From: Candidatus Magasanikiibacteriota bacterium
GTDB taxonomy: Bacteria > Patescibacteriota > Patescibacteriia > Magasanikbacterales > UBA922
Assembly: GCA_018650645.1 (NCBI GenBank)
Contig: JABIFP010000032.1
Coordinates: 1 to 39,540, forward strand
DNA: 39,540 nt
Direction of reading: 5' to 3'
The translations under genes and the position numbers were made by a program. How positions within the stretch are numbered: position 1 is the stretch's first letter; every line of letters begins with the position of its first letter. Under the pieces are notes generated by a model. That model was not told where the DNA came from, ran no database searches, and saw only the letters and a list, made by a program, of their open reading frames with translations. Below are positions 4,135 through 39,540 of the stretch, piece by piece.

Positions 4135-4539
4135 ATGCCAAAAAGAATCTACCACTACATTCGTGCTCATAAAGCTCAAATCACCAAATTTGCACTTGTT
4201 GGTATTGGCTCATTCATAATCGACATGAGCCTGCTTATTTTCTTTAAACAATCGATTGGTATGTCCCCTGTTGCCGCTGTTGCGGTTTCACAAATCATCG
4301 TTATTTCAATAAATTTCTTGCTCAATAAATATTGGTCATTTGAAAGCAGACAAGTTCCTCTCAAACAACTCAACCGATATCTTATTTTGGTTCTTGCCAA
4401 CTATTCGCTGAGCCTACTATTTATGTATGTGTTCCACGATCTACTTGCTTACGACTATCGCGCAGTGCGCTTTGGAACCATTCTCCTGTTTGTCACATCA
4501 AACTTTTTGCTGTATAAGTACTGGGTATATAAAGAATAG
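4135..4539 (+). CDS. GtrA-family membrane protein
   Basis: FALVGIGSFIIDMSLLIFF...VSINFLLNKYWSF GtrA motif. TACAAT (4121-4126) lies 8 nt before the ATG, consistent with a leaderless transcript. Confidence 0.85.
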   Translation: MPKRIYHYIRAHKAQITKFALVGIGSFIIDMSLLIFFKQSIGMSPVAAVAVSQIIVISINFLLNKYWSFESRQVPLKQLNRYLILVLANYSLSLLFMYVFHDLLAYDYRAVRFGTILLFVTSNFLLYKYWVYKE

Positions 4540-4541
4540 CT

Positions 4542-6233
4542 ATGGATATTGATGTTGTTATTGCCATCCGCCTGCTGGGCGTTGCCTTTGTGCTCTTGGG
4601 CGCATATATCATGATGTATAAACGCAGCTACCCGCTGTTTTTACTTTTGTATGGAGCGATTAGTGCGGCAGCGTTTGCGCTTTTAGTAGATAATTTAGAT
4701 TTGGCACTTTGGGGCTTGCAAGGAGATGAAATTACTATTGCTGCAATGTATCAAACCTTTGCGAGCCTTGGAGCTGGAGCAGATTTTGCATACCACCACC
4801 TTCCCCCATTTTACCCACCGGGATTCTTTTGGCTGGTGAGCGCTATTGGTGCGCCGTTGCAATTATCTGGTGTAGGCCTCATGAAACTCGCTGGCGTTAT
4901 TGGCTTTGCAACGTTTCCATTAGGAACCTATTTGCTTGCGGTTGTGCTGCATAAAAAAGAAGGTGGCTCTAACATGAAACTGATGCGAGCGGTTGCCTTT
5001 TTAGCACCACTCTTCATGCTTGTCATTATTGGTGTTGACCCCATGCTTGGGAAACCGTATGAGGTACTCGCACTTGGTGCAACTATTTTTTGGACGTTGA
5101 GCCTGTGGCAACGCGCACATGCAGATAATTGGAATAAATGGGATGTCCTTTTGTATGGAATTATTGGAGGAATTATTGCCATGGTGTACTACCTGTGGCT
5201 AGCTTTTGCCGCAATTTCCCTCCTTCTGGCCATAGTGTTTATCAAACGTCGATTAAGATATCTTTTACGCCTAATGAGCGCTGCTATTGTATCGTTCATT
5301 ATCCTTGCTCCGTATGCATATCCGCTTTTTAAAGCATACACTGCTATTGGCATGGAAAACTGGCAAACAGCATTTTTTGTACCAGATGGATTAGCCTTGT
5401 GGCTGCCAATGGTGACACAAATTTCTGTGCAATCACTACTCATGCTCTTTGGTCTTTGCGGCATGGTATATTTTTGGCAAAAAAAACCGATGAAGCTGCT
5501 TGCCAGCATGCTAGCGAGCGCATATGTATGGTGGATTATGGGACTGTGCCTACTGCTATTTTTTGACACACCCTTTCAGGAATTTAGAGGATTTTATTTA
5601 TACGCGCCAGCAGTTCTTGGAACGGCAGCAGCATTCAGTGCCGTGTATGCGTATAAACAATTTGATATAGCCAATAATAAACGCACACTTTATACGATTA
5701 GCGCGGTGCTACTCTTAGTCCTTTGTGCAAATAGTGTCTTTGGTACATTTATTGATGATCCAAAACTGCAAGAGTACCGCACTGAAGCTGCAAAGATCGA
5801 TGAAGAAACAGGAACACTCGCACAATTTCTTGGGCGCAGTGATACAACAGTAAAAACGCTTCATTCTGTTCCGCAAGTACAAGGATTTGTTCCGGTTAAT
5901 AATGTTTTGTATTTTAATCAGCACAACAATCACCCTGCGGCACTTTTTTCTGAACGGATGAGTTTTGTAGAGTCACTTGCAAAGGCAACTACTACAGAGC
6001 AGCTGACTGCTATAAATGCAGCCAGCAAATTTGGGCCAGTCGAGCGGTTTATCTTTTTTGATGACAAACAAGGAGGCTATCATCTCTTTTTTCATGTGGA
6101 TGCATTTGGTAAAGGAATAGAAGAGAAAATCATTGAATTTGATGCTAATCTATTTTCTAAAGAGCTATTCGTGGAACGATTCAAGAATAGAAAATATGTG
6201 GTTATTGAGCGAAAGACCGTCATAAGTGAGTAG
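4542..6233 (+). CDS. Polytopic GT-C-type glycosyltransferase (AftA/arabinofuranosyltransferase-like)
   Basis: Many TM helices; loop GDEITIAAMYQTFAS...DFAYHHLPPFYPPGFFW resembles GT-C/AftA enzymes; follows GtrA by 2 nt. Confidence 0.6.
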   Translation: MDIDVVIAIRLLGVAFVLLGAYIMMYKRSYPLFLLLYGAISAAAFALLVDNLDLALWGLQGDEITIAAMYQTFASLGAGADFAYHHLPPFYPPGFFWLVSAIGAPLQLSGVGLMKLAGVIGFATFPLGTYLLAVVLHKKEGGSNMKLMRAVAFLAPLFMLVIIGVDPMLGKPYEVLALGATIFWTLSLWQRAHADNWNKWDVLLYGIIGGIIAMVYYLWLAFAAISLLLAIVFIKRRLRYLLRLMSAAIVSFIILAPYAYPLFKAYTAIGMENWQTAFFVPDGLALWLPMVTQISVQSLLMLFGLCGMVYFWQKKPMKLLASMLASAYVWWIMGLCLLLFFDTPFQEFRGFYLYAPAVLGTAAAFSAVYAYKQFDIANNKRTLYTISAVLLLVLCANSVFGTFIDDPKLQEYRTEAAKIDEETGTLAQFLGRSDTTVKTLHSVPQVQGFVPVNNVLYFNQHNNHPAALFSERMSFVESLAKATTTEQLTAINAASKFGPVERFIFFDDKQGGYHLFFHVDAFGKGIEEKIIEFDANLFSKELFVERFKNRKYVVIERKTVISE

Positions 6234-6270
6234 AACGGAGAGTTTTCAACAAGTTTTTTTAACTAAAATA

Positions 6271-6290
6271 AGCGCTTTTTGCGCTTTTTT
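6271..6290 (+). terminator. Short terminator hairpin after the GT-C gene
   Basis: AGCGC-TTTTT-GCGCT-TTTTT. Confidence 0.7.
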
Positions 6291-6303
6291 GGTGTCTATT
6301 GGG

Positions 6304-6332
6304 TTGACAAGGATACGGCTGTATGCTAATTT
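6304..6332 (+). promoter_or_regulatory. Promoter of cassette 3
   Basis: TTGACA-17 bp-TAATTT with TGC immediately upstream (extended -10). Confidence 0.65.
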
Positions 6333-6375
6333 CTTTGTACGCCCATTGGGTATAACTGGATAAGGAGGTGCTGCA

Positions 6376-6516
6376 ATGCACCAGACCCACAACGCCGTGC
6401 AAGCGCGCGGTTCGCCCATCGTCGCCGACAGTCAACTTTGTTACACCGATCACTTCGACCGCGGCGCCGACGGCGCGGTGGACCGGGCCGGCATGATGCA
6501 CAGCGCGACGCGCTGA
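6376..6516 (+). CDS. 46-aa small protein MHQTHNAVQARGSPIVADSQLCYTDHFDRGADGAVDRAGMMHSATR (GC-rich cassette 3)
   Basis: AAGGAGGTGCTGCA-ATG with optimal SD; strongly G/C-ending codons; TGA at 6514-6516. Below the ORF track size cutoff. Confidence 0.55.
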   Translation: MHQTHNAVQARGSPIVADSQLCYTDHFDRGADGAVDRAGMMHSATR

Positions 6517-6521
6517 TCGCC

Positions 6522-6603
6522 GGCGGCCACCGCCCTTGCGCGAGAGGCCAGCCTTGGCTGGCCACCACCGATGGCATCGAAAGATGCCTGAGGCAACCTC
6601 GCG
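6522..6603 (+). ncRNA. Candidate structured RNA element (multi-hairpin 3' region)
   Basis: Perfect hairpins GGCGG-CCA-CCGCC (6522-6534), GGCCAGC-CTTG-GCTGGCC (6546-6563) and GGCATC-GAAA-GATGCC (6573-6588). The last two are enclosed by CGCGAG (6539-6544)/CTCGCG (6598-6603). Confidence 0.5.
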
Positions 6604-6607
6604 TTGG

Positions 6608-6666
6608 CCCCCGAGAGGATCTGCAAGCTCACCCAGCATGCAGCCTCCCGGGGGTCTGTTTTTTTT
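6608..6666 (+). terminator. Terminator of cassette 3
   Basis: CCCCCGAGAGG...CCTCCCGGGGG (one mismatch) followed by T8. Confidence 0.75.
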
Positions 6667-6693
6667 GCTTTTTTTTTGGCGCTACGCTACAAT
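6665..6693 (+). promoter_or_regulatory. Putative promoter of cassette 4
   Basis: TTGCTT-17 bp-TACAAT; the -35 lies within the preceding terminator T tract. Confidence 0.5.
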
Positions 6694-6730
6694 GGCTCTG
6701 CGCACGGTGCGCACACTGACACAAGGAGGA

Positions 6731-6877
6731 ATGCCCATGAGCATTCGAGGACCCACGAATCGTGGGATTGATTGTGGGCGGATAGCCAACGAAGCGGGGG
6801 GCCTGCAGCTTCCTGATGGCGGCTGCCTGGAGCCCGACGGTGGATGCCTGGACGACGGCGGGAAGATCAACGGCTAA
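6731..6877 (+). CDS. 48-aa micropeptide with tandem PDGGCL repeats: MPMSIRGPTNRGIDCGRIANEAGGLQLPDGGCLEPDGGCLDDGGKING (GC-rich cassette 4)
   Basis: AAGGAGGA-ATG; in frame with the C-terminus of the 6536..6877 ORF; 21-nt tandem repeat encoding LPDGGCL/EPDGGCL; followed by a terminator. Confidence 0.6.
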   Translation: MPMSIRGPTNRGIDCGRIANEAGGLQLPDGGCLEPDGGCLDDGGKING

Positions 6878-6933
6878 GCGCGCCAACTACGCGAGGCTAT
6901 CGACTTCTGACGAGCCGCGACGCTCACGCGTCA

Positions 6934-6970
6934 GCCGGGGTTGCTGCTTGCAGTGGCCCCGGCATTTTTT
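6934..6970 (+). terminator. Terminator of cassette 4
   Basis: GCCGGGG...CCCCGGC followed by T6. Confidence 0.8.
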
Positions 6971-7001
6971 ATACTGAGATACATTGCAAAAAAAGCAAAG
7001 C

Positions 7002-7039
7002 ACATAAAAACAACGCGATTTTTCGCGTTGTTTTTATGT
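7002..7039 (-). terminator. Terminator of the surface-protein operon
   Basis: ACATAAAAACAACGCG...CGCGTTGTTTTTATGT. Confidence 0.85.
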
Positions 7040-7040
7040 A

Positions 7041-9119
7041 TCAGAGTTGCAACTCGTCTCCAATAATAATCATGTTTTCTTCTGTCACCGTATCGGTTGC
7101 CCGTAGCTCTACCCTACTCATCAGCTGCGTCTGTGAAGGATTTGCACCCTCTCTATACAGCGTAAACTGCATTGGTATTTGCGGAATATCTATTGGCCAC
7201 TCATCAATAGTCCAGCTAAGTATTTTTGTTGTTTCGTTATACTCCATCTTCCCCGCTGGTGCGGTACTTGTTACCATTTGTGTTAACCCAAATACTTCAG
7301 CACTCAGTTCCACATTCTTTAATGGGTGGAAACTATTACTGAGTAACCATGTAACGGTATGCGTATCTTCTGGATTATTCGTCGTTGAAACATCATCCAC
7401 TACTTGCAAAGCTAAATCTGAGTTCAGTGTCATGGTAATCGGTGATGAGCTTAATACAATCTGCTCGCCGTTTAGTGTATATTGCATTTCAACTGTCAGC
7501 GTTGCCTTCTCTGGTGGGAATGTTGAAAGAATAATGTCTTCTGCGTTCTTAATTGGAATTTGGAAGTCGATTATTTCTTGTGCGCCAAATGGGAAGCTCG
7601 AAAATGCTGGTACTTGCGCGCTGGTGTGTGTTAAAATTCCTCGCCGCAATGTTTTTGATAATTGTTCACCCACAATCGATCCATCTAATTCGTCTTCCAG
7701 ATTCCGCCAATCAAAAATATTTACATTTTCAAACGACGGACCATCTAACATAGCCCGCACACGAACATTTTTAAGTGATACATCACTTTGGTTCCGTACG
7801 GCAACACTAATATTGAGTTTTTCTCCTGGCTGTACAGTCAAATCTTTTGTAGCACCGTTTACCACTGGAGTAATGCTAATATCCGTATCCTGCAGTGTTA
7901 CATGCATTGAAGAACTCGCATACACAAACCCTTCTCCCTCTTTTTGTGCATTTGCATACCCAACAAGTTGCACAGGAATATCTAATTCTTTAACTATTCC
8001 GTCTGGGCTCACAAACAGTCCTTCCATTTGTAAAATATATGGCTCACTGAGCACATCAATACTCCATCTGAGCTGTTCAAACTGATCACTTTCTGGCGCT
8101 GATAGTTTTTTAACAAACATGCCAGTCCCCAGCATTTCTAAATACATATGCTGCACATTCATTCCTTCTTTTGGTGTAATAGTAAATTGCATTGGTACCT
8201 CTACCCCACTTGCAACCATCTCTGGGTACTCAATATCGATTGTTGCCGGTGCGTGAGCGGTGTTCACTTCTAATGTAGTCGCCTTTTGAAATTCTGAACT
8301 AAATCCATTTGGCGTATACGTCATAAACGCTCTAAAGGACTGCGCTTTTTGCAACGCACCAAACATATTTCCGCTTACATCAATATATCCTGAGTCACCT
8401 GCTGCCAAGTTCCCAAGCTCCCATCGATTTACTGTATCTTCTGATGGCGCTACAGTTGATTCTTTATATACAAACCCTGCTGGGTATCGTACTTCTAACG
8501 ATACATTATGTAGTCCTGCTTCTTGTGCATTCCTATATCGAATTCTATATCGCACATGTTCCCCTGGAGTGATTTCTTCTTCTCCAGATACAGAAAGTAT
8601 CACATCATTTTCTACAAATTCACCGCTTGGTTGTAATAAAAATAGTCCGGCATACACCACACCACCCAAAAGTCCTACAGAAAGGATAAACGAGAGGAAT
8701 GATCGGAATAATCTCCCTCTTTTGTTTGATTGAAAGGTTGAAAGATCTGGTACTGACCCATCAGAATCCTGATAAATCGATTCAATCCCCGCAGAAATTC
8801 TTTCTTTTGAGGCTTCTGACATATGCAACGCCGCACGAGAGGCAGACGGTGCAGGAACAGCAACTTCAGACTCAATCTCTAGTTCTAATTCAAGTTCCGG
8901 TTCTTCCTCTACCTGAGGAATATGCGGTGCCACTTTTTTCTTGTGATGCACCTTACTTTTTTTCTCTACATGTTTTTTCTTTGCTACATGCTTTTTCTTT
9001 TTTGGAGCCGCTGCAATCTCAACATCATGAAATCCCTCATCTTTCTTCTTATGTGTTTTTTTAGAGCGCTTTGTCGTTTTTTTGACAGGCCCTTTTTTTG
9101 CGACAGGTTTTTTTGCCAT
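7041..9119 (-). CDS. Membrane-anchored surface protein with Lys-rich cytoplasmic tail and DUF11/CARDB-like extracellular repeats
   Basis: MAKKPVAKKGPVKKTTKRSKKTHKKK..., one TM (LFRSFLSFILSVGLLGGVVYAGLFLL), then beta-rich repeats (ISVSGEEEITPGEHVRYRIRYRNAQEAGLHNVSLEVRYP). Confidence 0.7.
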   Translation of the reverse strand: MAKKPVAKKGPVKKTTKRSKKTHKKKDEGFHDVEIAAAPKKKKHVAKKKHVEKKSKVHHKKKVAPHIPQVEEEPELELELEIESEVAVPAPSASRAALHMSEASKERISAGIESIYQDSDGSVPDLSTFQSNKRGRLFRSFLSFILSVGLLGGVVYAGLFLLQPSGEFVENDVILSVSGEEEITPGEHVRYRIRYRNAQEAGLHNVSLEVRYPAGFVYKESTVAPSEDTVNRWELGNLAAGDSGYIDVSGNMFGALQKAQSFRAFMTYTPNGFSSEFQKATTLEVNTAHAPATIDIEYPEMVASGVEVPMQFTITPKEGMNVQHMYLEMLGTGMFVKKLSAPESDQFEQLRWSIDVLSEPYILQMEGLFVSPDGIVKELDIPVQLVGYANAQKEGEGFVYASSSMHVTLQDTDISITPVVNGATKDLTVQPGEKLNISVAVRNQSDVSLKNVRVRAMLDGPSFENVNIFDWRNLEDELDGSIVGEQLSKTLRRGILTHTSAQVPAFSSFPFGAQEIIDFQIPIKNAEDIILSTFPPEKATLTVEMQYTLNGEQIVLSSSPITMTLNSDLALQVVDDVSTTNNPEDTHTVTWLLSNSFHPLKNVELSAEVFGLTQMVTSTAPAGKMEYNETTKILSWTIDEWPIDIPQIPMQFTLYREGANPSQTQLMSRVELRATDTVTEENMIIIGDELQL

Positions 9120-14978: not shown

Positions 14979-15006
14979 TTGACAAAATAGGGTTTTTTGC
15001 TATAGA
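14979..15006 (+). promoter_or_regulatory. Promoter of cassette 5
   Basis: TTGACA-16 bp-TATAGA. Confidence 0.6.
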
Positions 15007-15062
15007 GTGAGGAGGAACACAAGACCTGTCCCACATAGTGAGGATAGGAAGGGAGGAACGAG

Positions 15063-15713
15063 ATGGACGAACTGTCCTATGGAGTGCGCCTGGGGCTGTT
15101 TGTCCTGGCGTGTATCGCAATTTTGAGGCTCGGATGGGTAGCCCTCCAACGCATGCGTGAGAAGCGCATGCTCGACACCTTGAACGAGCCAGACCAGCCA
15201 CCCGCAGACACTTCTCAGCGCGATGCGCGCGGACGCACCATCACCGATTCGGTTGAAGAAGAGATCCTCGAAGCGCTCAAGCCCGTGATCGTACGGCTTT
15301 GGAACCATGGAGGAGATGTGATCCTCGGTCTGCCGTGGTGCAAGGGAATGCCCGGCTGGAACAAGGGGTATCTGCGCCACCTTCAGCGCAAGGGCTGGTT
15401 CATCAAGATCACCGGCGAAATCGACATCGACAGCGCCACGACTGATGATGACAACTCTAAGATTGAGCTGTGGGGTTTCATCGCCAAGCTGCAAGCCAAG
15501 GATGCACTCACTATGAGCATCCTTCCCGCTGAAGCGAACCCGCAGACGATCCTCGCGATCTACGGACCAATTGCGACGGGCCAACAGCCCGGCGACACCA
15601 CCATCGGAGCCCTTCATCACGACACCCTGTACATGCCGGGATCCGCCGGCGCCATACCGGGCCAGGCGTCACCGGCGATGATGGATCTCAATCCGATCAA
15701 GGAGGACGACTGA
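15063..15713 (+). CDS. 216-aa membrane-anchored orphan protein (GC-rich cassette 5)
   Basis: GGGAGG-N6-ATG; N-terminal TM segment (LGLFVLACIAILRLGWVAL); GC-rich codons; terminators follow. Confidence 0.8.
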   Translation: MDELSYGVRLGLFVLACIAILRLGWVALQRMREKRMLDTLNEPDQPPADTSQRDARGRTITDSVEEEILEALKPVIVRLWNHGGDVILGLPWCKGMPGWNKGYLRHLQRKGWFIKITGEIDIDSATTDDDNSKIELWGFIAKLQAKDALTMSILPAEANPQTILAIYGPIATGQQPGDTTIGALHHDTLYMPGSAGAIPGQASPAMMDLNPIKEDD

Positions 15714-15732
15714 CCACCGCCTGTCAACAACC

Positions 15733-15805
15733 CCGCCGACCCCCGCGCCAAGCGCGCGTGGGTCGGCCTATCAAAAAAGCCCCGCAAACATGCGAGGCTT
15801 TTTTG
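15733..15805 (+). terminator. Two hairpin terminators between cassette 5 and eno
   Basis: GCCGACCC...GGGTCGGC, then AAAAAAGCCCCGC...GCGAGGCTTTTTT. Confidence 0.8.
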
Positions 15806-15810
15806 TTTAC

Positions 15811-15831
15811 CCGCCATAGCCTTGGCGAAGG
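15811..15831. repeat. CCGCCATAGC-type intergenic repeat
   Basis: CCGCCATAGCCTTGGCGAAGG, containing CGCCA...TGGCG inverted repeat. Confidence 0.45.
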
Positions 15832-15845
15832 TTAGTTTTCTTTTC

Positions 15846-17093
15846 CTACAACGTCGCTTCAATCTCCATCAGTCGATTATATTTCCCAACTCGTTCACTT
15901 CTAGAAAGTGATCCCGTCTTAATATATTCACTATTCACCGCAACGGCAAGGTCAGCAATAAACGTATCACACGTTTCACCAGATCTATGAGAAACTGACG
16001 TACTGTACCCATGCTGCTTTGCAAGCATAATCGTATCAATCGTTTCGCTAAGAGATCCAATTTGATTTAGCTTAATCAAAATTGAATTCCCTACCCCCAT
16101 ATCAATTCCTTTTTGCAGTCGCGATTTATTTGTGACAAACAAATCGTCTCCAACTACTGCAACTTTTTTTCGGAGCACATCGGTGCACGCTTTCCACGCA
16201 TCCCAATCGTCTTCTGCCAATGGATCTTCTACAGAAATAAATGGATACTTTTTTACCCACTTTGCAATTTGTGTAATCATTGCTTTGCCGCTAATAGCAG
16301 CTTTGCCCTGCTCTAATTTGTACTTTCCCTTCTCATAAAATTCTGAAGCCGCAATATCTGTCGCTAAATACACATGCTTGCCTGGAATATATCCGGCAGC
16401 TTTAATCGCCAGCATAATCAGCTTGATTGCATCTTCATTTTTTTTGAGTTCTGGTGCAAATCCCCCTTCATCACCAACGCCAGTTGCAAGTTTTTTCTTT
16501 TTCAAAATCGATTGTAATGCATGAAAAATTTCTGCACCAATACGTACCCGCTCTGCAAATTTTGTATGCATAGGTACCACCATGAACTCCTGAATAGATA
16601 ATCCATTGGTTGCATGCTGCCCACCATTTAGAATATTCATGGTAGCAATCGGCATCTTGTATCCCTTTTCTTTTATTCTGTATGTTTGGCGAATATGTTT
16701 ATACAGCGGCCGCTCTAATGCAATAGCGCAGGCTCTTGCAGTTGCCAAAGAAACTGCCAAAATTGCATTTGCCCCCAATTTCTTTTTATTTGTGGTGCCG
16801 TCTAACGCAAGCATGGTTTCGTCAATCAATCGCTGCTTACTTGCGTCCATGCCTTTGAGTTTTTTGGCAATAAGAGTGTTTACATTTTTCACTGCCTTTT
16901 GTACGCCTTTTCCACCATACCGCTTCCCTTTATCTCGCAATTCCCAGGCCTCGTGAATGCCAGTAGATGCACCGCTTGGAACAGACGCAACGGCTTGTGC
17001 GCCGCCTTGTAACACAACAGCGGCTTGCACGGTAGGATTTCCTCGTGAATCTAAAATTTCTCTGGCTTGAATCGATTTGATGAGCGTCTTCAT
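15846..17093 (-). CDS. eno: Enolase
   Basis: IQAREILDSRGNPTVQA, SGASTGIHEA, MNILNGGQHA, GVGDEGGFAP, VGDDLFVTN, SHRSGET. Confidence 0.97.
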   Translation of the reverse strand: MKTLIKSIQAREILDSRGNPTVQAAVVLQGGAQAVASVPSGASTGIHEAWELRDKGKRYGGKGVQKAVKNVNTLIAKKLKGMDASKQRLIDETMLALDGTTNKKKLGANAILAVSLATARACAIALERPLYKHIRQTYRIKEKGYKMPIATMNILNGGQHATNGLSIQEFMVVPMHTKFAERVRIGAEIFHALQSILKKKKLATGVGDEGGFAPELKKNEDAIKLIMLAIKAAGYIPGKHVYLATDIAASEFYEKGKYKLEQGKAAISGKAMITQIAKWVKKYPFISVEDPLAEDDWDAWKACTDVLRKKVAVVGDDLFVTNKSRLQKGIDMGVGNSILIKLNQIGSLSETIDTIMLAKQHGYSTSVSHRSGETCDTFIADLAVAVNSEYIKTGSLSRSERVGKYNRLMEIEATL

Positions 17094-23039: not shown

Positions 23040-23114
23040 TAGATCTAGCGTATATAGGATATTTCTGAAAATAGATGTTTTTTCCCCCTACTTATGCTTA
23101 TATAATCTTTCAGC

Positions 23115-23134
23115 GGGGAGAGTTTCCTCTCCCC
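23115..23134 (-). other. Hairpin after cassette 6 (possible terminator without clear U tract)
   Basis: Reverse strand GGGGAGAG-GAAA-CTCTCCCC. Confidence 0.5.
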
Positions 23135-23155
23135 ACGTCCTGGCTAGCTTGGCCC

Positions 23156-23458
23156 TCAGGCCAGAAGGTAGTTGTAGTATACCGTCTGGATCAAGAGCAC
23201 GAGACTTGAAGTCAAGCCTATGGTGTCTGGCGGAATCAGCGCCCACGCTTGCTTGCCGATGCAGTACGGGATACGGACACCGTAGATGAGCAGAGCAACC
23301 ACCACAAGAAAGATATGGATGCCGCAGTGCTGATCTTGCCAGGTCTGGTAGATCTGCATCGGAAAGCCGATGACCGCCATCAGCATACCAAATCGCAGAG
23401 TCCAAACTTGCAACGCGTCTATCCGCGCTTCGCACCAAGCACGCACCTTATTCTTCAT
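23156..23458 (-). CDS. 100-aa three-TM protein resembling SemiSWEET/PQ-loop proteins (GC-rich cassette 6)
   Basis: Start preceded by GGAGGA; FGMLMAVIGFPMQIYQTWQDQHCGI...LLIYGVRIPYCIGKQAWALIPPDTIGLTSSLVLLIQTVYY fits the G-x-P(x)QI-x2-TW / G-x-N(T)xG-x-Y layout of PQ-loop halves. Confidence 0.7.
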   Translation of the reverse strand: MKNKVRAWCEARIDALQVWTLRFGMLMAVIGFPMQIYQTWQDQHCGIHIFLVVVALLIYGVRIPYCIGKQAWALIPPDTIGLTSSLVLLIQTVYYNYLLA

Positions 23459-29333: not shown

Positions 29334-29340
29334 ATATAGC

Positions 29341-29367
29341 AAAAGCGACCGGGAATACCGATCGCTT
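29341..29367 (-). terminator. Terminator of cassette 7
   Basis: Reverse strand AAGCGATCGGtattcCCGGTCGCTTTT. Confidence 0.65.
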
Positions 29368-29389
29368 GATCTCCTGACAGCGAGTGGGT

Positions 29390-29463
29390 CATCGCGCTTG
29401 GCGATGTTCGCATGTCGGCCGGAGGGGCCACTCAATCTTGTTTTACTCGGTTGAGCTACCGAG
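29390..29463 (-). other. Hairpin-rich 3' UTR of cassette 7
   Basis: CTCGGT/ACCGAG (29446-29463), GGCC/GGCC (29417-29429), CATCGC/GCGATG (29390-29406), all perfect. Confidence 0.5.
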
Positions 29464-29478
29464 GTGTGTTGTGATGCC

Positions 29479-29937
29479 CTAGAGGGCGAATGAATCCGAG
29501 AGATCCAGCGTCAGCTTCGGCATTGCCGGCTTAACATTGGATTCGGCGATGGACGTCCGAGCGGGAGTCACCTTCTTGGCAACGTACTGCTCAGCGGTCC
29601 AACCACCTGTCGGAGTCATGACCAACACCATCTTGTAGCCCGCGACCTTGAAGGTCGGGAGGTTGCGGAAGTTGAACTTCTGCACCTTCTTGCCAATGAC
29701 CAGCACCCCTTCGCTTGCGCGATCGGTGCAGATTTTGACGACGGCATCATCGATGTTGATGGTGGTCTTGTCGTAGTCGCCGCTTCCAGGGAACTGCATC
29801 CCCAGGGCTTCGAGCTTCCACGCGCGAGCGCAGAAATCTACGACGTCTTTGGCATCGCTCACACCGAGATCGACCTCCTGCCCGTAAGCAACAGAGGAAA
29901 TCAAGGTCAGAGCGAGTGCGGTGAGGAAAAAACGCAT
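29479..29937 (-). CDS. 152-aa secreted orphan protein with signal peptide (GC-rich cassette 7)
   Basis: MRFFLTALALTLISSVAYGQ-EVDLG... has a signal-peptide pattern; start preceded by GGAG; TAG stop. Confidence 0.75.
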   Translation of the reverse strand: MRFFLTALALTLISSVAYGQEVDLGVSDAKDVVDFCARAWKLEALGMQFPGSGDYDKTTINIDDAVVKICTDRASEGVLVIGKKVQKFNFRNLPTFKVAGYKMVLVMTPTGGWTAEQYVAKKVTPARTSIAESNVKPAMPKLTLDLSDSFAL

Positions 29938-30077
29938 GTGCGTCTCCGACTCCAATCAGCAAGTGCTGAGGAGTCCTTCTAGGTCCCAGGATTTTCGTCC
30001 CAGGGTCTATTGAAAGGTTCTCGGCCAGAGGCCGCTATTCAGGAAGTGATTGTTGCCAATCTCTTACCGAACAAAGC

Positions 30078-39094: not shown

Positions 39095-39168
39095 AACGGG
39101 ATGAGTATAGCAGCGGCAAAAGAAAAAAGAAACCCGGCCACCAGCGTATCATTCATGCTAAAAAGCAA

Positions 39169-39192
39169 AACAGCGGGTATTTCACCGCTGTT
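39169..39192 (-). terminator. Terminator of cassette 8
   Basis: Reverse strand AACAGCGG-tgaaatac-CCGCTGTT followed by TTGCTTTTT. Confidence 0.75.
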
Positions 39193-39221
39193 TGCCTCTT
39201 TCATACTCCTAGGTTGTAGTT

Positions 39222-39540
39222 TTACGGGCGTTCACACACGTCGGTGCCGCGGTCCCAGCCGTAGTTGGCACCCACGTTCCACTTGCACACCAAGCCGGCC
39301 TGACAGTGGCTGTTGCGGTCGCAGTCCCCTTCGCCGTGGCCACACTTGCACGCATCCGAGCAGTACGGCCCATCGCCGTTGCTGCCAGAGTGGCAGTTTG
39401 CCGCGGGCGGGTTCTGAGGCGGTGGCGCAGGAGGCGGGGGAGGCGGTGCTGCATTTCCCTGAACAGGCATACAGACGTCCACGTTGGCCGCCCAGCCGAA
39501 CTGCGCACCGATGTTGTTTCGGCACTCAGTTCCCTGCTGA
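39222..39540 (-). CDS. Cys-rich repeat protein with Pro-rich linker, N-terminus off the window (GC-rich cassette 8)
   Basis: Reverse strand is open to the window edge: QQGTECRNNIGAQFGWAANVDVCMPVQGNAAPPPPPPAPPPQNPPAANCHSGSNGDGPYCSDACKCGHGEGDCDRNSHCQAGLVCKWNVGANYGWDRGTDVCERP*. Confidence 0.8.
   Translation of the reverse strand, partial: QQGTECRNNIGAQFGWAANVDVCMPVQGNAAPPPPPPAPPPQNPPAANCHSGSNGDGPYCSDACKCGHGEGDCDRNSHCQAGLVCKWNVGANYGWDRGTDVCERP

Follow-up and report, generated by a model that had tools for sequence, protein, structure and literature searches.

A GC-rich ORFan cassette with a folded 3′ end, and its many counterparts, in a Patescibacterial genome

Between two native genes of Candidatus Magasanikiibacteriota bacterium lies a short GC-rich segment, of which positions 6304–6666 are read here, with a probability of about 0.6, as one complete monocistronic unit: a moron-like ORFan cassette (cassette 3) with a structured 3′ untranslated region (3′UTR) and a terminator. 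Below its stop codon is a three-way RNA junction, and roughly 70–100 similar GC-rich single-gene inserts are present in the genome. The window, 39,540 nucleotides (nt) long, is the whole of contig C31 of a genome of 1,035,600 bases in 32 contigs (42.5% GC, estimated 100% complete). The features of the locus, and the GC-rich islands of the window, are the following.

4542–6233, + strand: native AftA-like gene upstream (Pfam match to AftA_N)
6270–6286, + strand: AT-flanked terminator of the AftA-like gene (terminator scan), beyond which cassette 3 starts
6304–6332, + strand: putative promoter, TTGACA-N17-TAATTT (sequence, and fit to the promoter geometry of 69 cassettes)
6362–6369, + strand: Shine–Dalgarno (SD) sequence AAGGAGGT, with the ATG 6 nt downstream
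6376–6516, + strand: 46-amino-acid (aa) ORFan ORF (MHQTHNAVQARGSPIVADSQLCYTDHFDRGADGAVDRAGMMHSATR) with GC-rich codons, TGA at 6514–6516
6522–6534, + strand: hairpin GGCGG-CCA-CCGCC, folding only when the upstream ORF is left out
6538–6604, + strand: three-way junction (fold, shuffle test and pair probabilities)
6538–6544/6598–6604, + strand: closing helix of the junction, CGCGAG/CTCGCG at 6539–6544/6598–6603 plus the G-U pair 6538/6604
6546–6552/6557–6563, + strand: arm A, GGCCAGC-CTTG-GCTGGCC (6546–6563)
6568–6569/6592–6593 and 6573–6578/6583–6588, + strand: arm B, including GGCATC-GAAA-GATGCC (6573–6588) with its GAAA loop
6606–6666, + strand: intrinsic terminator, a long hairpin CCCCCGAGAGG...CCTCCCGGGGG at about 6606–6656 and T8 at 6659–6666
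6665–6966, + strand: second mini-cassette, with putative promoter TTGCTT-N17-TACAAT, SD AAGGAGG and terminator at 6934–6966
7041–9119, convergent: native DUF11-containing gene downstream (Pfam), with a terminator at 7001–7040 (terminator scan)
About 1–521, 639–1403, 6281–7028, 14999–15872, 23104–23436, 29336–30007 and 39128–39540: GC-rich islands of the window, many of them single-gene cassettes

The GC content rises from about 33–43% just upstream to 59–69% across cassette 3 and the adjacent mini-cassette, and the segment is bounded by the AT-rich terminators of the native genes. Named relatives of the AftA-like protein (43% identity) belong to Magasanikbacteria and Falkowbacteria. In phages, morons are single-gene units that work autonomously, each having a promoter and a terminator and differing from its neighbours in GC content; cassette 3 likewise has a predicted promoter and terminator of its own, a deviating GC content and a position between native genes. 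It does not lie in a recognizable prophage, its flanks being the native AftA-like and DUF11-containing genes, with no match in PHROGs. Relatives sharing the upstream gene provide no clean empty site, because the closest of them with that gene conserved has a different gene downstream. The 46-aa ORF of the mini-cassette (6737–6877, MSIRGPTNRGIDCGRIANEAGGLQLPDGGCLEPDGGCLDDGGKING) has a marginal codon score of 0.145; its peptide contains DGGC repeats and has no relatives.

The 46-aa ORF of cassette 3 had been proposed by an initial annotation of the same DNA, and its coordinates are correct, with an open frame and a well-placed SD sequence. Its frame has the highest codon log-odds of the six (0.198) under a model trained on 42 other cassettes and calibrated on 45-codon chunks, in which true cassette coding chunks have a median of 0.228 and the 95th percentile of wrong frames is 0.139; on this codon usage, the ORF probably encodes a peptide. 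With a leader of 36 nt, TTGACA-N17-TAATTT matches the common cassette plan exactly. The promoter went unreported in a generic scan for 9 of 12 consensus positions because its −10 element is weak.

All the stems named in the initial annotation (GGCGG, CGCGAG, GGCCAGC and GGCATC) and the terminator, a GC-rich hairpin followed by a U-run, are present, and the suggested resemblance to a three-way junction corresponds to a real fold. Its view that the structure exceeds chance is borne out by dinucleotide shuffling, the folding-energy test it had itself proposed: the junction region (6536–6605) folds at −37.6 kcal/mol, whereas its shuffles average −22.0 and 1 of 5,000 is as stable; for the longer region 6517–6605 the values are −45.7 and −32.7 kcal/mol (3 of 5,000). 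In the full predicted transcript (6339–6667), junction and terminator are both retained, and the junction helices have pair probabilities of 0.80–1.00, at least 0.93 except for the outer G-U pair. The claim of four perfect stems holds only in part. As its bases pair with the ORF, the GGCGG/CCGCC stem has a probability of 0.00 in the full transcript, and the robust set is therefore three perfect stems and the terminator. Junction and terminator fold independently of the ORF.

Neither the RNA, for which homologues had been called for, nor the peptide has a recognizable relative in the databases and genomes searched. In Rfam 15, at the gathering score, the whole window contains two tRNAs only, and 6514–6667 matches no family even at E values up to 5. 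A single-sequence covariance model of the RNA recovered only itself from 46 genomes of the family, DNA searches of these genomes, phages and plasmids detected no homologue of the element, and its own genome contains no second copy; a 27–33-nt match on contig C28, considered as a copy, sits at the terminator and T-run. For the peptide, a search of 59 relatives returned itself and one match (E = 0.16) containing two stop codons; searches of GTDB contigs and IMG/VR viral contigs found no relatives, and Pfam, PHROGs, PDB, and phage and plasmid proteins yielded none, with one PDB match at E = 0.87. Two short GC-rich coding matches within the ORF stretch from plasmid blastn (Roseivivax and Streptomyces) were judged to be chance.

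GC-rich islands of 350 bp or more number 104 in this genome, and GC-rich windows account for 8.6% of its length. Requiring an SD sequence, a TTGAC upstream, a GC content no lower than 54% and GC3 greater than GC2 selects 69 non-overlapping ORFs, which share one plan: TTGACA-N17-TAnnnT, SD, GC-rich ORF, one or more stable hairpins after the stop codon and a U-run terminator. With the upstream TTGAC being a selection criterion, and the −10 element and spacer being taken as the best of 16–18, the spacer is 17 in 54 of the 69, TTGACA is present in 48 and a TAnnnT −10 element in 36 (52%, against 2% at TTGAC sites inside native ORFs). Among native gaps, cassettes are rarest in the codirectional ones (24/594, compared with 11/96 convergent and 8/94 divergent). 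Cargo elsewhere in the genome includes PP2C phosphatase and response-regulator domains; most other cassette ORFs tested lack a Pfam match. Contig ends fall within islands in 22 of 64 cases, against 8.6% expected (p = 9e-9), an excess that might stem either from differences between strains or from GC-rich DNA being poorly covered.

Two tandem GC-rich genes on contig C23 share an 83-bp 5′ promoter and leader (4516–4598 and 6010–6092, 94% identical) and encode proteins only 23% identical, and on C24 three tandem cassettes with different ORFs have terminator regions about 81% alike (178–241, 1297–1360 and 1721–1783). Short repeats (about 40–180 bp, 70–95% identity) occur in islands of C4, C5, C16, C17, C20 and C31, and a copy within the window, at about 1594–1783, adjoins a tRNA-Arg gene. 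On C22 (22–1584), a GC-rich ORF contains the motif CNGxDDDCDG repeatedly and then continues into a part that by eye resembles a formylglycine-generating (sulfatase-modifying) enzyme.

Strong hairpins, unrelated in sequence, often lie between the stop codon and the U-run in other cassettes. After trimming of the final 42 nt, and with the 3′ end set by a T-run rule, the 3′ regions of 22 cassettes have a median folding z-score of −2.96, against −0.26 for 36 native genes (Mann–Whitney p = 3.5e-6). Limiting the comparison to UTRs no longer than 160 nt (12 cassettes, 12 native genes) gives p = 0.013; numbers are small, and some long UTRs may overrun the true terminator. Cassette 3 ranks 9th of 22 with the terminator removed and 19th of 54 when the 3′ region is taken whole, and an energy scan located 144 separate island loci with a 70-nt window at or below −34 kcal/mol. 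Most cassettes have a single hairpin where cassette 3 has the more elaborate three-way junction; given these mid-table ranks and the many stable loci, the junction is a richly structured case of a widespread pattern and no outlier.

Cassettes of the same kind, with unrelated proteins, are found in Magasanikbacteria CG10_47_10, where 280 kb contain 17 islands and 6 strict cassettes; four other family members, sampled at about 100 kb each, have 0–1 strict cassettes. The CG10_47_10 cargo includes PRPP synthetase and PP2C, several of its cassettes also have one or more hairpins and then a terminator after the stop codon, and no cassette protein is shared between the stretches of the two genomes that were compared. 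Our literature search found no description of such cassettes. A study of horizontal gene transfer in groundwater Patescibacteria describes genomic islands and transfer amounting to up to 13% of genome length (PMC12455944); promoters are unmentioned in the portions of its text that were searched.

The cassettes resemble phage morons in being monocistronic, with a sigma-70-like promoter, an intrinsic terminator, deviating GC content, a position between native units and diverse cargo. They differ in being spread chromosome-wide over the 104 islands, none seen inside a prophage, and the five cassettes of the window tested against PHROGs had no match. Integron cassettes, too, are single-gene, ORFan-rich units whose 3′ ends contain inverted repeats, a superficial likeness that would make the folded region a DNA-level recombination site, an attC-like folded single strand moving the cassette. 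This is very improbable: each cassette has its own predicted promoter and terminator, cassettes are mostly dispersed among native gaps and form no single array, and cassette ends share no sequence genome-wide except for a few scattered short repeats. Inspection of the cassette 3 locus revealed no RYYYAAC/GTTRRRY arms, and the wider idea of an integron or DNA-level repeat was discarded after island self-BLAST and examination by eye found neither shared ends nor R/L boxes.

Structured bacterial 3′UTRs with Rho-independent terminators, and the small RNAs (sRNAs) derived from them, likewise have stable hairpins that follow the stop codon and precede the U-run, although the junction of cassette 3 reaches −37.6 kcal/mol per 70 nt and has no sequence relatives. 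Known 3′UTR-derived sRNAs have a very stable 3′ domain that folds on its own and ends in a terminator, just as seen here, and RNase cleavage might free junction and terminator to pair with other mRNAs. We give this only a slim chance: the fold pairs almost every base and offers targets few single-stranded ones, no homologue was found among the 46 family genomes, and comparable structures occur in many unrelated cassettes. Less probable still is a non-coding RNA gene spanning the entire cassette, with a fortuitous ORF; the ORF has just 46 codons and no relatives, but its SD is correctly spaced, cassette-like codon usage is confined to the right frame, other cassettes have the same ORF-bearing architecture and the ORF region, folded alone, is no more stable than its shuffled versions (z = +0.84). 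The position of the element directly upstream of the mini-cassette (6665–6966) might suggest a riboswitch or attenuator acting on it in cis, yet a strong T8 terminator lies in between, the mini-cassette has its own putative promoter and nothing in Rfam matches, making this the most remote of the four. Because strong hairpins are common in unrelated cassettes and in CG10_47_10, the folded region is most likely an ordinary transcript end rather than a special regulator, and the riboregulator or dual-function RNA first suggested for it finds no support in homologues of RNA or peptide.

Read as a self-contained unit, cassette 3 would be transcribed from its sigma-70-type promoter into an mRNA of about 330 nt, with the 36-nt leader and SD sequence, encoding the predicted ORFan peptide. 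Past the stop codon, the rigid three-way junction would stack straight onto the intrinsic terminator and is likely to have a passive role, capping the 3′ end against exonucleases and shielding the terminator fold from ribosomes and upstream RNA. Owing to this arrangement, the cassette might be expressed and insulated at whatever site it occupies. A broader proposal, speculative and on balance unlikely, is that the junction is one of many fast-evolving, sequence-unrelated and functionally equivalent 3′ ends required by mobile, self-expressing single-gene cassettes. These would constitute a chromosomal 'moron' system of a Magasanikbacteria-like lineage, with roughly 70–100 units per 1-Mb genome and possibly with genes aimed at the host cell.

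Taken alone, the hairpin region is elaborate yet ordinary; of greater interest is the population of cassettes to which it belongs. The genome is an unusual one, that of a streamlined 1-Mb Patescibacterium. About 9% of its DNA consists of GC-rich single-gene units, each with a promoter and terminator of its own and many of them ORFan, which are absent from most sampled relatives and present in one. If the cassettes are exchangeable, they would show how reduced cells acquire foreign genes and express them outside any operon, and would point to a source of that DNA, perhaps the host cell.
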